Positions 39,886-53,700 of a stretch of DNA of 64,000 nt are shown in pieces. The stretch comes from Serratia liquefaciens (GTDB lineage: Bacteria > Pseudomonadota > Gammaproteobacteria > Enterobacterales > Enterobacteriaceae). The notes under the pieces are model-generated. The model did not search any database. It was not told the origin of the DNA and saw only the letters and a program-made list of their open reading frames with translations. The stretch spans positions 2,107,019 through 2,171,018 of the forward strand of contig NZ_CP088930.1 in the NCBI RefSeq assembly GCF_027594825.1. The letters are read 5' to 3'. The stretch's first letter is position 1. The number at the start of each line of letters is the position of its first letter. The position numbers and the translations under genes are program-made.

Positions 39886-40461
39886 TCAGAAACGATAGCC
39901 AACGCCGATATTGAAACCGTTGATAGAGCGATTTTTACCACCGGCATCCAGTTTGGAGCCTTCATAACCGATATCTACCGCCAGATTTTCCATCGGGTTA
40001 ACCTGGAAACCAACACCGTACATAAAGGAGGTTTTCTTCTGGTTACCGCTCTCTTCACCCATATATTCGTAAGTGTTGTATGCGTAATTACTCCAGGAGG
40101 ACTTGTAATCCACCTTGTTATAATTCAAACCCAGCAGCACGTAAACGCTGACAAATTGATTAAAACGGTATGCCGGACCAACGGACAGTGAGTAATATTT
40201 AACTTCGGCATGATTATTAACCTTGTCGCGATAGACATTGTAAGACTCGTCCTTGTCACCGCTCATATAGGTAAATGAGCTGATAACGCTGATTGGCGAA
40301 TCCCACTCGTAACGGTACTTAACGTTCACGCCGTTGATATTCTTGAAGTCCTGCACCTTGCTCTGTGCATAACCGGCAGTGATGGTACTTTGCCCGGCAT
40401 TGGCAGCCATGCCGAAGCCCAGAGTGGAAAGAACCAAAGTGGAGATGATTAACTTTTTCAT
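39886..40461 (-). CDS. Ail/OmpX-family outer-membrane protein
   Basis: A 191-residue small barrel of the Ail/Lom/OmpX family (PF06316 type). The signal peptide MKKLIISTLVLSTLGFGMAANA is cleaved before GQSTITAGYAQSKV. Eight alternating beta strands follow with the family motifs KNINGVNVKYRYEWDSPISVISSFTYMSG, YYSLSVGPAYRFNQFVSVYVLLGLNY, and the end VGFQVNPMENLAVDIGYEGSKLD with the terminal NGFNIGVGYRF. Relatives mediate serum resistance or adhesion; the role here is not shown. GGAAG lies 6 bases before the ATG at 40461; an upstream frame to 40515 is not used. Base composition is lower in GC than abgT, similar to the genes beside cdiI. Confidence 0.9.
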   Translation of the reverse strand: MKKLIISTLVLSTLGFGMAANAGQSTITAGYAQSKVQDFKNINGVNVKYRYEWDSPISVISSFTYMSGDKDESYNVYRDKVNNHAEVKYYSLSVGPAYRFNQFVSVYVLLGLNYNKVDYKSSWSNYAYNTYEYMGEESGNQKKTSFMYGVGFQVNPMENLAVDIGYEGSKLDAGGKNRSINGFNIGVGYRF

Positions 40462-40640
40462 GCAATCTTCCTTAATCGTAAGTGGAACAACATTGGTAAA
40501 AAAATAACTATCCATATCGTACTGGCGGCATAAATCATTAATTTTGCATTATCTAACCCAATTGATAGATGAAATGACAGCGTAGCAAATTCAGTATCAT
40601 AATTAATTAGTCGTACCGGTAACTTGCGAGCTGCTTCGCG

Positions 40641-41207
40641 TCAATAGTAATTTCGTCCACCCAACAAGCCTGTTTTATAGCTGCACTCTTTATCTTCATT
40701 GCCCCAGGATTTTGGCGCATGGGTGCTACTGGTCAGGTCAACAATCCTTACACCAGAATTAACCGGGTAAATGTCATAATCGTGACCGACTTCAGGAATG
40801 AAACTGGATGAGCGCGTCTCTATTACTTGATTATATTGCGATCTAAAGGTTTCTTCTTTATAAGTAATCATAATATGCTGATTAGCTTTAATCTTATACT
40901 CTATGGCATCCCTCCCCTGCATCTCTGAAGATGGCGGCAGCATGCCCGGCAGTTTTTTGTTGTAGGTCGACTTGATACCGATGATATTAACACCAGCAGT
41001 TAAGCTCTTGGCATCTACAAGCTTGTAGCACTGCCCTGATTTCTCATAAACCTCAAAGGTTAACGGTGGCAGGTAGTTTTTCACTCTGATCCTGGAAAAA
41101 TCCGTTCCAGTGTAGTCATCGACAGATTTTGTTAAGTTCACGGAACAGCCAGAAACAGCAGTGACTGATAAAAAAACGGCAAAAATTGCACCTAATTTTA
41201 TTGCCAT
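40641..41207 (-). CDS. Unrecognised predicted lipoprotein
   Basis: I do not recognise this 188-residue protein. It has a lipoprotein signal (MAIKLGAIFAVFLSVTAVSGC) with the lipid-bearing Cys at residue 21, so it should sit in the inner or outer membrane facing the periplasm. Serine at +2 favours the outer membrane. The mature part is soluble and beta-rich, with further cysteines in SGQCYKLV and DKECSYK that could form a disulphide. The ATG at 41207 has GGAGT upstream. The gene is AT-rich and lies about 100 bases downstream of cdiI on the same strand. It may belong to the CDI cargo (for example an accessory or a second immunity factor), but nothing proves it. Confidence 0.75.
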   Translation of the reverse strand: MAIKLGAIFAVFLSVTAVSGCSVNLTKSVDDYTGTDFSRIRVKNYLPPLTFEVYEKSGQCYKLVDAKSLTAGVNIIGIKSTYNKKLPGMLPPSSEMQGRDAIEYKIKANQHIMITYKEETFRSQYNQVIETRSSSFIPEVGHDYDIYPVNSGVRIVDLTSSTHAPKSWGNEDKECSYKTGLLGGRNYY

Positions 41208-41309
41208 AATAATCACACTCCATTGTATGTAAGAATATGGATTTAAAAATATCTTAAGCATCCCTATCAAGGGGCATGCTCAGCCTTTTTCATTACGTCT
41301 ATTTATTTA

Positions 41310-41582
41310 TCAATCCTTTGGTGGTTCATTAGAGGATGATTTTTTATTAGCGTTATACTCATCTATCTTTGCAAAAATCCATGAACCAACACCGGCTGCA
41401 ACACCAACGATACCACTAACCACCAAAGAGTCTTTAAAAGATTGCTGAGTAAAGCGCAGCTCACCAAACTTTAAAAAATTAATACCAACCTTCACTATCA
41501 AAATGAACAAAAGAAAACACACAAAGCAGTAAATAACGCTAATAAACAATATTTTCAATTTCACTTTAGGTTTATTTTCCAT
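41310..41582 (-). CDS. cdiI: Candidate CDI immunity protein (two-helix membrane protein)
   Basis: A 90-residue protein starting MENKPKVKLKILF. It has two hydrophobic helices (about residues 9-30 and 52-71) with a short, mixed-charge loop between them and a charged C-terminal tail, so it is probably an inner-membrane hairpin. GGGGGA lies 5-6 bases before the ATG at 41582; an ATG at 41600 is also in frame but has a worse site. Its start overlaps the 3' end of cdiA by 11 bases, which is the position of CdiI in every CDI locus. A membrane immunity protein fits a toxin that acts at the membrane. I do not recognise its family. AT-rich like the toxin tail it would neutralise. Confidence 0.72.
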   Translation of the reverse strand: MENKPKVKLKILFISVIYCFVCFLLFILIVKVGINFLKFGELRFTQQSFKDSLVVSGIVGVAAGVGSWIFAKIDEYNANKKSSSNEPPKD

Positions 41583-44500
41583 TTTTATCCCCCACCCCAT
41601 TTATCGTGTTTTTCAATTCATTACTAATAACTTCGCCACCCATGGTGCCGAAGATATCGCTAACCATACCGGCTGATGGCCCTAATACAGGTTTAAGCAC
41701 CGTCGGAGCATAAGTTCCGATGGCACCACCGAACGCTGAGCCAGCGACACTGCCCGATAGAGCACCAGGATCAGCTCCATCAGTAAAGATAGTTCCACCA
41801 ATAGCAATACCGATATTCGCTGGGATACCTCTTCCAGGCGCTAATCCCCCCGTGACTGCCGCCGCCGTGGTGCTCCAATAATCATAAGTTTTGGATTCAT
41901 TCCCTGGCTTATTCATGTCGTACCATTGATATGCAGCATTTGCTCCACCACTTAAGACTGAGCTGACGGCAACCTTACCGATCGATGCTGCTGGCCCAAG
42001 GTAAATCGCCCCCGCAATCATTGCGCCATCAGCGTAACCATTTACTATCACTTTAGCGATATCGGCTCCCTCAGGCATATCTCCCTTGGCGTAATGACTC
42101 ATTGCAGCTTGAATTTCATCGAACGATTTTCCTTCGTTCATCATACTTGCTTGTAGAGTAGTCGCTCCTTGGCCATAACTCATCAACCCTGGTGGTAAAG
42201 TAATATTCTGGTCATTATTCTCAGAAGTATTCTTCCCGGATTGTCCACCAACGACCGCCCCCGCCGTATCACCGCTTGCCAGGCCGCCGGCCAAACCACC
42301 TGCAAGCGTAGCCAACGCGGAAACAGTCTGGCGCTGTTCTTCGCTCATTTTGCTGAAGTCACTGGTGCCGAACATCGCCTCGGCAATCGCTTTGGTGCCT
42401 AATGCAGCTGTCGCAGCGCCCGCAGCTCCCGCTGCGGCCGATTGGCCTTGCAGTTCAGCCAGTGCGCCAGCCACCACGGCATGTGCGATAATTCGGCTTT
42501 CCTCATTCGGTGCCAGACGATGAATCTGTTCAGCCAGATACGGCGCAGCCCCACCGGCAATCGCGGCTTGTAGATCGCCACCAGCTAACCCTTGCACTGC
42601 GGCAACCGCCGCCTGCATACCCTGTTGAACCTTACCGCCCGTACCATAGCCCGACTCGCTGAACGCCTGGTTATACGCCGTCTGGTAAATCTGCTCGTTG
42701 ATATCCTTATCGGTGATGACCTTGCCAGGTTTTTCTTTCGCCAGCTTATCTGCCGCGGCCTTGCGATCGGCATCGGTAACGTTATTCATTTTCTCGTTGG
42801 CGGCTTTGGTTGCGGCGATCGCCCCCTCGGTCCGCGCAATGTCCATCGCCTGATTGCCGATCTCGCCGATCAGCTGCGCCTGCTGTAGCCGTTTCTGCTC
42901 TTTCTCTTTGTCGAAGATCGGGCTTAACGTCTGGTTGGCGTGCTCCACGTCGCGGCTCAGGTCGTTGACGTCCTGCGTTTGTTTGTCCCGATCGCGGATG
43001 ATGATGGTGCCGTCGCTCACCGCCGCATGGGTGGTTGAGCTGTCGTGTCCGCTGTTGTTGGCCCCCACCAGCAGGCCGTTGGCCATGTTGCCGGCGAACT
43101 GGCTGCCGATGCTGCCGCCGGAGCTGATGCCTACGCTCTGGTGCTCCACTTCGAAATCAGCCTGATTGTGGATGTCCTTAAAGCCCAGCGTGCCGGTATC
43201 GAGCTTGTTTTTGTCGGCGGTGGCGGTGCTGCCGATCACCGCACCGTTAAGCTGGGTATGTTCGCCCACCGTCAGGTCAAAGCCGCCCTTGCCGGCGAAG
43301 ATGCCCGTCTGCTCCTGCACGCTGTCGTAATTGCTGTGCATCTTGTCTTTGCTCAGGCTGATGCTGCCCGAACCGGTCATCGAACCGAAGGTGAAGCTGC
43401 CACCGGCGCTGGCGTTTTGCTGTTTGGAATCGTAACGATCGCTGTCCTGCTGGCTTTCCAGCAGCAGATTGCGGCCCACGTCGGCCTTGACCGATTCGCC
43501 GGTGACCTGTGCGCCGATCAGGTTGGTATCGCGCCCGCTGGTAATCTTGACCTGATTACCGGCGTTAACCGTGGTTTCGGTGTGGCTGGTGCCGTTGCCC
43601 TTCTCGTTACCCTTGCCCTTGTTGACGCTGGCGGAAACGCTCAGCCCAATACCGCCGGAACCGACACCGATACCCACGCCCAGCGTACCGCCCTGGCTCT
43701 CGTTTTTACCGTCCAGATACTGGGTGTTCTCGGCGGAAAGCAGGTTAACGTCGCGATTGGCATTCAGGGTGACGTCCTTGCCCGCCTGCAACTGGCTGCC
43801 CTGCACCAGGATGTCGCCGTCCTGGCCCTTCACGCCGTTGCCGCTGGCGGTAATGCTCAGGTTGTTGCCCGCCGTCAGGCTGCTGCCCTGCGCGGTGCTC
43901 TGCCCGCTGTTTTGAGTAGACGTGGAAGACTGGGTACCGTAGGAAATGCTGATCCCCACCATGTTGTTATTGGCCGGATCGGCGCCCTGCGCCTGCGCCA
44001 AACGCGCCGCCTGCACCGCCTGTACGCCGCTCAGCGCCGCCTTGGTTCCCTGTAATGCCGCCAGACGACTGTCGTCGGTGGATTTCGCCTGCTGCGAGGT
44101 TTCTACCGCAGTGTTCAGCGCACTGCCGACCGTGCCGGACAGTGCCAGCGTCAGGCCGGATTTCTTCTGTTCGACCTTGTGAGTCTGGCTGTTCTGATCC
44201 TGCGCCTGTGTCACCGACACATTCTTGCCGCTCAGCGCCATGTCCTTGCCGGCCACCAGTTCGGACCCGGTCACCGCCAGGTTATTACCGGCCCCCAGGG
44301 TGACGTTGCCGTTTACGCTGCCGACGGTGCTGCCCTGATTGGTCAGCCCCTGCGCGGTATCCGTGGTTTTCAGGCTTTCGGTGCCGTAGCTGATGCCGAT
44401 GCCACCGCTGCTCATCAGGCCGGATTTTTTCTCCTGCTTGAGGTGCAGTTCACTGTTGCTTTCGGTCGCGCCGGTGATGCTAAGATCGTTCCCTGCCAGC

Positions 44501-51740: not shown

Positions 51741-53456
51741 TCAGTAGTTCCAGCTCAGGTTAAAGCCCAGGGTGACTGGGCTGGTGCTGAACCCCTCGGG
51801 TTTGGAGAAAGGCACGCCGGCGAACAGATCGTAACCGACCTTGAAGGCGTAGCCGCGCAGGCCCACTACGCCACCGGCCAGGTGCTGCCCAACCAGATAG
51901 TCGGAACCGTAGCCGCCCACTTCGCCGTAGTCGGCACCGAGATACAACTCTTGCCCCTGCAACGGCGTGCGCCAGGCCAGATCGTTACGGACGAACCAGC
52001 CGTGATTGGCGTTCAGGGTACGCTCGCCGTCAAAGCCGCGCACCGTCCAACGGTTGCCGATAGCGAACTGATCCTGCGGCGTCAGCGGCGTATCGCTGAT
52101 CTGACGCTGGTATTGCACGTTGTAGCGGAAGTTCTGGCTGAACAGGCTGAATGGCACGTCGAGCTGGGCGTTAAGCTGCACAATTTTGCTGAGCGCCGTC
52201 GCCTCGCCAAAGGTCTCTTCCGGCGCAGGCAATGCGCCGAACCAACGGGTACCGCGCTGATAGCTGACACCCGCGTCCAGCGTGGCTTGTTGAATGTAAT
52301 GGCGGTGCTGCAGCCCCAGGCGCCAGCCCGAGGTGCGTCGGCGCTGCACTTCCACTTCGGTATCGTTGATGTAGTTGCTGGACTCGCGCGCCAGCACGTC
52401 ATAGGTCAGCGTGGTTTTCTGGCTGCCGTTACGGTGCAGTACGCGGCTGAGTTGGAAATCCAGGTTCTTGCTCTTGCCGCTGTAGCGGTAATCCTGATTC
52501 TGGCCGGCAATGGTCTGGTGGTAGTCATAGCTGTTGGCGGTGACCCCGGCCATCCAGTAACCGAACGGCACCGAATAGTGCCCGGTGATGTTCTTCGATC
52601 CCTTGCCGCCCTGGTTTTGCAGATCGCTAGAGCCGGAGATATAGAACAGATCGCTGAGCGAAAACGGGTTATCCAGCGACAGCGTCAAACCGCCCTGATA
52701 ACGCCCGGTGCTCTTGGTGCCGGAATCATCCAGCGAGGCGCCAATACGCCACATGCGTTCCTGCTTCCAGCTCAGGGCAATGTCGCTTTCGCCGGGCTGT
52801 TCGCCGGGGATGATTTCCATATTGGCCTGCACCGTCGGCAAGCGCTGCAGGTTTTCCAGCCCCTGTTCAATATCACGCAGATCCAGCAGGTTGCCCGCAT
52901 GGGCCGGGAAGCTGCTGTAAGGCTGAATGTAATGGCCGCTGTCCGGCGTCAGTTTCACCTGCCGCACGTAGCCTGGTACCACCACCAATCGCAGTTGGCC
53001 GCTTTTCAGATCCTGCGTCGGCGCCAATACGCGGGTGGTGATATAACCGTGATCCACCAGCCGGTTTTGCAGGGTGCTCATCAGCAGGTTAATGCCCTGC
53101 CCGCCCAGGCAACGGCCCTGCGCCTGATTGGCGATGCGCTGCAACGGCAGCCAATGGGGGAGCTTGTCCTGGCCGCTCAACACGACCTGATCAATTGGGA
53201 AACAAGGTTTTTCTGCTGGGAAAGCAATGCGACCAAAGCTGGACGAAGGTGGCGACAGGCGCACATCAGGCGTCGGGGGGGTCAGCTGTTGCTCCAGCGC
53301 CTTTTGCCGCTGCTGCTGTATGATCAGCTGTTCGCTGTTTGATGTTGCCGCCAGCAGCGGTTGGCTGAATATAAATAGCGGCAAGACAACGGAGCCAAAT
53401 GGAATACAGCCCTTGCGCACAGCAAGGCTGAGCGAAGAGTAAGCGGAGTGGCGCAT
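51741..53456 (-). CDS. cdiB: CdiB/ShlB-type two-partner secretion transporter
   Basis: A 571-residue Omp85-superfamily outer-membrane transporter that exports CdiA. It has a signal peptide (about residues 1-37), an N-terminal plug helix and linker rich in Pro, and two POTRA domains (about 75-225; [15 protein letters not shown] and [27 protein letters not shown]). A 16-strand barrel follows with the conserved motif [14 protein letters not shown] (VRG(Y/F) in the L6 loop) and ends in FNLSWNY. AGGGAAAAAG precedes the ATG at 53456. It is the first gene of the cdiB-cdiC-cdiA-cdiI transcript, and the promoter must lie in the AT-rich 53.5-54.0 kb interval. Confidence 0.93.
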
Positions 53457-53700
53457 TACTTTTTCCCTGTCGAAAGACAAATAAAAGATAAGAATTGTAA
53501 AAAAGCGCAAACATTATGCGCACGAATAGCTCACGATCAACTTAATTTTGGTCGGTAATGGGCGCTGGGTAACAAAATGCTTAATAAGAATGATCTGCGA
53601 CGCTAATGCCACCGCTGTAATCCCAAGTCAAAAACAACACTCAACCAATTGTTTTAAATCATTATATTTATTATTTTATTTTGATTGTCATTCATATTCA

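Follow-up and report, generated by a model that had tools for sequence, protein, structure and literature searches.

The question raised by this locus is what kind of toxin is formed by the end of its CdiA effector, and whether the small gene that overlaps it encodes the matching antidote. The window analysed here, a stretch of 64,000 nucleotides of Serratia liquefaciens (contig NZ_CP088930.1) from a genome assembled as a single 5.35-Mb contig, contains a contact-dependent growth inhibition (CDI) locus with the minus-strand gene order cdiB-cdiC-cdiA-cdiI, the first three genes of which are backed by Pfam (Table 1). A first-pass annotation had described SENN followed by a 213-residue CdiA tail, an anatomy that is right since the PT-VENN domain ends at residue 2992, and had suggested a membrane-acting toxin with membrane immunity that was not recognisably of the E. 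coli EC93 family. The suggested mode of action is well supported by homology; the separation from EC93 was wrong. In the following, tail residues are counted from the S of SENN.

Judged from its sequence, the tail is with high confidence a type 10 alpha-helical CDI ionophore, a Serratia member of a described toxin family. As a single sequence it matched EC93 CdiA-CT1 with 43.8 bits in phmmer over tail residues 34-212, the hhalign probability was 98.3%, and a profile of the tail and 29 relatives reached 62.7 bits. A profile restricted to the ionophore domain still scored 29.3 bits, with the top shuffled decoy at 10.7 bits. In the phmmer alignment G162, G166 and G170 of the tail fall on G168, G172 and G176 of EC93, and among 19 sequences G162 and G166 were invariant and G170 nearly so; such a glycine zipper, GxxxGxxxG, is placed in ionophore helix 4 (PMC11630599). 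The tail stands behind a VENN-type motif, here SENN, and the SENNDQ site is identical in other Serratia genomes. Many weaker homologues match either residues ~7-65 or ~65-217 alone, and thus the tail consists of two modules, entry and ionophore; where a tail has just the entry module in common with it, the toxin domain is of the RNase A or EndoU type or is unassigned. Type 10 ionophores are described as an entry domain followed by a five-helix ionophore that causes depolarisation (Halvorsen 2024, PMC11630599), and the E. coli members fall into six entry groups, among which the Serratia tail probably stands near the AcrB groups 3 and 1.

The 30 sequences used here are the Serratia tail, 20 of the 30 loci L003-L032, themselves a subset of the places matching the tail in the family-wide search, and L033, L034, L036, L037, L039, L040, L041, L068 and L071. 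L003 is the window itself and L004 duplicates L033; L008, L011, L017, L019, L022, L027, L029 and L031 were dropped from the alignments because they were incomplete or broken, lay close to the end of a contig or began within the tail, and the E. coli locus L038 was dropped as broken. The profiles for the ionophore domain alone and the entry domain alone were built from 26 of these rows, excluding L006, L007, L014 and L032 with EC93-like entry domains.

Database searches returned no family for the tail: neither Pfam (tail alone, E up to 0.1; full CdiA, E up to 1) nor NCBIfam (full CdiA, E up to 1) nor PADLOC (E up to 1) held a model matching it, the best hit of a Protein Data Bank sequence search was an antibody (E 0.13) and not credible, and no relative was found in the viral contigs searched. 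Calling the tail unrecognised is correct for the Pfam and NCBIfam searches made here and not for the literature (PMC11630599), and a tail that matches neither database is now assigned to a described toxin family with a testable receptor prediction, AcrB. It had also been called hydrophobic and Gly/Ala-rich, of which the latter applies (31% glycine plus alanine, as compared to 18-22% in six CdiA tails with other toxin domains), while its hydrophobicity is only mild (grand average of hydropathy 0.06). The six comparison tails comprise two with Pfam nuclease families and four unassigned or named by the analyst.

The reading of the overlapping gene as encoding a 90-residue protein with two membrane helices was borne out by two hydrophobic segments with Kyte-Doolittle peaks of 3.17 and 1.99. 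The longest ATG open reading frame (ORF) encodes 96 amino acids from position 41600; the ATG at 41582, preceded by GGGGGA at ribosome-binding distance, offers the better site and gives 90 amino acids, with an overlap of 11 nt with the end of cdiA. In its structure model two long helices form a hairpin (predicted local distance difference test, pLDDT, 70; moderate confidence), and in length and predicted fold it falls among the type 10 immunity proteins, which are two-helix hairpins of 72-100 residues that protect only against the cognate toxin (PMC11630599). Of the profile searches proposed for both proteins, that with the tail found EC93 CT1, whereas the small protein gave only sub-threshold matches in Pfam and NCBIfam and a weak one to EC93 CdiI; its identity to 24 relatives was 13-45%. 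An ORF that encodes 65-115 amino acids, includes two or more hydrophobic segments and starts between -80 and +120 nt was present behind 27 of the 30 tails (L028 counted only via a cut-off ORF that is possibly out of frame), behind none of the six tails with other toxin domains, and behind none of the 64 other ATG ORFs of at least 150 amino acids in the window, many of which are surely non-genes. The linkage between tail and small membrane gene is thus not due to chance, as 27/30 stands against 0/64. The three misses are L013 and L036, in which the second segment lay below the cut-off, and L030, where the gene is apparently broken and looks split into two overlapping short ORFs. From its sequence and position, the 90-residue protein is very probably the matching antidote of the tail.

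Taken as a whole, the locus is very likely best explained as a CDI system with an alpha-helical ionophore and a membrane CdiI. By analogy with published relatives, CdiB would export CdiA, which CdiC would probably lipidate, and after receptor binding CdiA would be cut at SENN in the periplasm of the target cell. The ~65-residue entry domain would then most likely use the inner-membrane pump AcrB, and the ~150-residue alpha-helical ionophore domain would insert into the target inner membrane and dissipate its potential; in kin, the two-helix membrane hairpin of CdiI would bind the terminal helices of the ionophore and block the toxin.

AcrB is the predicted receptor because the entry domain resembles, by profile alone, that of EC93 CT2, an Ntox25 toxin according to Pfam that needs AcrB and dissipates membrane potential (PMC8190604). 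The entry profile scored 62.0 bits over CT2 residues 11-55 (best decoy 7.5), and 57.9 and 54.1 bits with the E. coli ionophore-like tails of M15 and 774, both of which carry the group 1 motif PEGQDPARGLL. The motif PEGQDP(A/V)RGLL was absent from the Serratia tail, which has PEGADIAKVIV instead. Entry domains of group 3 ionophores share homology with the ones on Ntox25 toxins that depend on AcrB, and AcrB is reported for groups 1 and 3 both (PMC11630599); homology to such toxins was found here by profile. Sequence resemblance thus makes use of AcrB by the entry domain rather likely. The S. liquefaciens genome itself encodes six resistance-nodulation-division pumps above the TIGR00915 cut-off.

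Several observations weigh against parts of this interpretation. The strongest 19-residue hydrophobic stretch of the tail reaches just 1.46 (maxima of 1.04-1.74 in the 29 relatives and 1.76-1.79 in three EC93-like tails), and the structure model of the tail, all-helical, has a mean pLDDT of 31 from 3 sequences and is unusable, so that the five-helix bundle is unconfirmed. CdiI matches EC93 CdiI weakly (19.6 bits, top shuffle 11.7). The two-segment test was positive behind both Ntox25 tails tested and hence marks membrane immunity, not the ionophore family; as the partners of ten further ionophore-like tails (L037b, L039b, L055, L058, L073, L074-L077 and L088) scored only one segment, it both over- and undercounts. 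With regard to entry, the match of the single Serratia tail to EC93 CT2 lacked significance (8.3 bits, E 0.084), the entry profile reached just 18.0 bits with EC93 CT1 (best decoy 7.5), and it also matched the RNase A or EndoU tails L042 (52.6 bits) and L048 (43.6 bits) and the tails L051 (82.3 bits) and L046 (45.0 bits) with unassigned domains. That related entry domains are fused to such different toxins would fit a variant in which the same ionophore enters via another inner-membrane protein, perhaps specific to Serratia, as would the insignificant single-sequence match and the use of other receptors by groups with other entry domains (PMC11630599). We consider this possible and less likely than entry via AcrB, given the profile matches to the experimentally AcrB-dependent CT2 and to two tails with the group 1 motif, and the report of AcrB for both groups.

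It is improbable that the toxin depolarises by opening the proton path of AcrB itself, with no pore of its own: this was raised for EC93 CT1 and CT2 (PMC8190604), both of which require AcrB, but the EC93 ionophore domain still inhibits when joined to YciB or DtpA/B entry domains (PMC11630599), and AcrB need therefore not be the channel. Least credible, and very unlikely, is that the tail is an enzymatic toxin, a nuclease or other, of unusual fold. The occurrence of this entry-domain type on nucleases and the lack of a matching Pfam family would agree with it; however, the toxin half is homologous to EC93 CT1 and not to nuclease tails, and its partner is a predicted membrane protein of a kind seen behind none of the six other-toxin tails.

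As to where immunity specificity resides, comparison with the second module of S. proteamaculans (L033) points to the end of the toxin. In blastn the stretch from 43027 to 41768 aligned with 89.8% DNA identity, that from 41767 to 41183 did not align, and that from 41182 to 39001 aligned again with 86.6%. Tail residues 1-65 are 100%, 66-152 97% (98% overall for 1-152) and 153-217 only 32% identical, and the CdiI proteins share 22%: between these two, the first part of the ionophore domain is little changed and CdiI greatly. Across 25 of the 30 sequences (L007, L025, L028, L030 and L071 lay outside the hand-picked CdiI set), pairwise CdiI identity tracked that of residues 153-217 (Spearman rho 0.73; reached in 0 of 2000 Mantel permutations), as compared to rho 0.27 for residues 111-152 (9/2000), 0.20 for 66-110 (43/2000) and 0.07 for the entry domain (439/2000); the result is not blind, as the boundary at residue 152 was picked after the L033 comparison had been seen. 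L006 and L009 displayed the opposite pattern, with 55% identity in the front, 77% in the end and 79% in CdiI. Helices 1, 4 and 5 are named as variable and CdiI-contacting (PMC11630599).

Since only residues 153-217 track CdiI strongly, an exchange of the terminal helices together with cdiI is suggested: tip and antidote may be swapped jointly as one small cassette, a mode of exchange that may be new. We hold it to be slightly on the probable side that, besides the whole CdiA-CT at VENN, the unit of exchange is ~65 terminal codons plus cdiI, a specificity cassette of ~0.6 kb within the toxin domain. It would comprise the zipper helix and the last helix, leaving receptor use and the early ionophore unchanged. 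No such cassette is mentioned in the passages of PMC11630599 on recombination and exchange, which is not proof of its being unpublished, and for the Serratia tail no near-identical end from a distant lineage was found (best 52%). A conserved front with a divergent end might instead reflect fast divergence in place under co-evolution with immunity. Interfaces under co-evolution can change quickly and divergence into cognate pairs is described (PMC11630599), but the mismatch between front and end runs either way (98%/32% for the Serratia tail and L033; 55%/77% for L006 and L009), and flanks 87-90% identical on both sides enclose a middle that blastn cannot align, so that we give this alternative a minor share of the probability. 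If exchange of the terminal cassette is true, one recombination event could alter the self-recognition of a lineage while its target range is kept, which would help to explain the fast diversification of ionophore pairs.

The tail family is broad: within the bacterial family, protein searches detected it in 67 of 392 genomes, and it also occurred in 45 plasmid records, 36 of them from Escherichia, and a query of pre-toxin plus tail matched in 21 of 30 genomes of the genus. A peptide-pattern search of genome contigs matched in L033 and L034 only. In S. proteamaculans the main cdiA is followed by a second module, and it is there that the ionophore sits. The tails at the SENNDQ site of L074-L077 are different alpha-helical ionophores, which scored 51-59 bits with the profile; L078, of the same species as the window, has an Ntox25 tail (PF15530, 145.5 bits) at this site, and L079 one near-identical to it. 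Thus a single Serratia site holds either an Ntox25 tail or an ionophore of the alpha-helical type depending on the genome, both types being reported as depolarising. The E. coli CDI loci L037 (STEC17-183), L038 (C10) and L039 (C5) contain arrays of orphan tail/immunity modules with differing ionophore-like tails side by side, and C10 also an Ntox25 tail. CDI loci have been reported in S. marcescens SM39, with no ionophore named in the passages concerned (PMC4231636).

Table 1. Features of the S. liquefaciens CDI locus in window coordinates (cdiB is given by its ORF limits, the real start being probably internal).
Feature	Coordinates	Strand	Evidence
cdiB, exporter in outer membrane	51741..53510	minus	Pfam ShlB 364.5 bits, POTRA_2, POTRA_3
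cdiC, HlyC-type lysine acyltransferase, 176 aa	51200..51730	minus	Pfam HlyC 124.2 bits
cdiA effector, 3205 aa	41572..51189	minus	Pfam TPS, Fil_haemagg, PT-VENN, ESPR
PT-VENN pre-toxin domain, CdiA residues 2946-2992	42214..42354	minus	Pfam
SENN, CdiA residues 2989-2992, closing PT-VENN	42214-42225	minus	translation
Entry domain, tail residues 1-65	42031..42225	minus	separate homologue matches
Predicted ionophore domain, tail residues 66-217	41575..42030	minus	profile match to EC93 CT1
Glycine zipper G162-x3-G166-x3-G170	41716..41742	minus	phmmer alignment with EC93
Variable cassette: final ~65 toxin codons, cdiI and DNA to next ORF	41183..41767	minus	blastn
cdiI, predicted two-helix membrane immunity protein, 90 aa	41310..41582	minus	hydrophobicity, hairpin model

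The DNA following cdiI (39886-41270, minus strand) encodes a lipoprotein-like ORF and an outer-membrane protein of the Ail/Lom type, and both recur after the module of S. proteamaculans (81% and 88%); two of the E. coli CDI arrays are likewise followed by an Ail/Lom gene (L037, 47%; L039, partial). The genome has another cdiA (C1:2353111-2353260, L001), which has an unrelated tail, Pfam CdiA_helical, followed by a small ORF with no hydrophobic segments.

In its delivery genes the locus resembles class IV CDI, as compared by cdiC alone. For E. coli, a cdiC between cdiB and cdiA is unique to this class, in which CdiC lipidates CdiA by means of the catalytic residues His37 and Asp107 and the receptor is the lipopolysaccharide core (PMC8510554). 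The Serratia cdiC has the same place, and His37 and Asp107 were found at matching positions in its translation (residues counted by eye). A rule that cdiC-bearing loci carry only depolarising tails was rejected: from 36 hand-chosen cdiC places 33 stretches were obtained, 31 of them long enough to read, of which 8 matched helical ionophore-like profiles with at least 100 bits (built from tails of other entry groups taken for ionophores, one of them from a single sequence), 1 matched Ntox25 and 22 neither, the latter being different toxin domains, proteins unrelated to CDI or stretches other than a cdiA end.

As in the type 10 ionophores of E. coli, the tail combines their architecture, glycine zipper and homology with a two-helix CdiI overlapping the end of cdiA, and it is 41-52% identical to four E. 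coli relatives across the tail; unlike these, it belongs to a Serratia effector, follows SENN instead of VENN and stands in a locus with cdiC. RefSeq names both EC93 effectors (L094:32961-42359 and L093:11310-20639) 'contact-dependent inhibition effector tRNA nuclease', which misfits their published depolarising activity. EC93 CdiA-CT2 (PF15530, a family with no Pfam match in the Serratia tail) has a similar entry domain by profile and a reported effect, loss of membrane potential, that is also predicted for the Serratia tail; its toxin half is unrelated and predicted to be a beta-barrel (PMC11630599). EC93 CdiA-CT1/CdiI (NZ_CP061330, L094) is homologous to the Serratia tail over the toxin half and part of the entry domain, the latter being ~10 residues longer in CT1 and differing in its motif, and the two CdiI proteins are only weakly similar.
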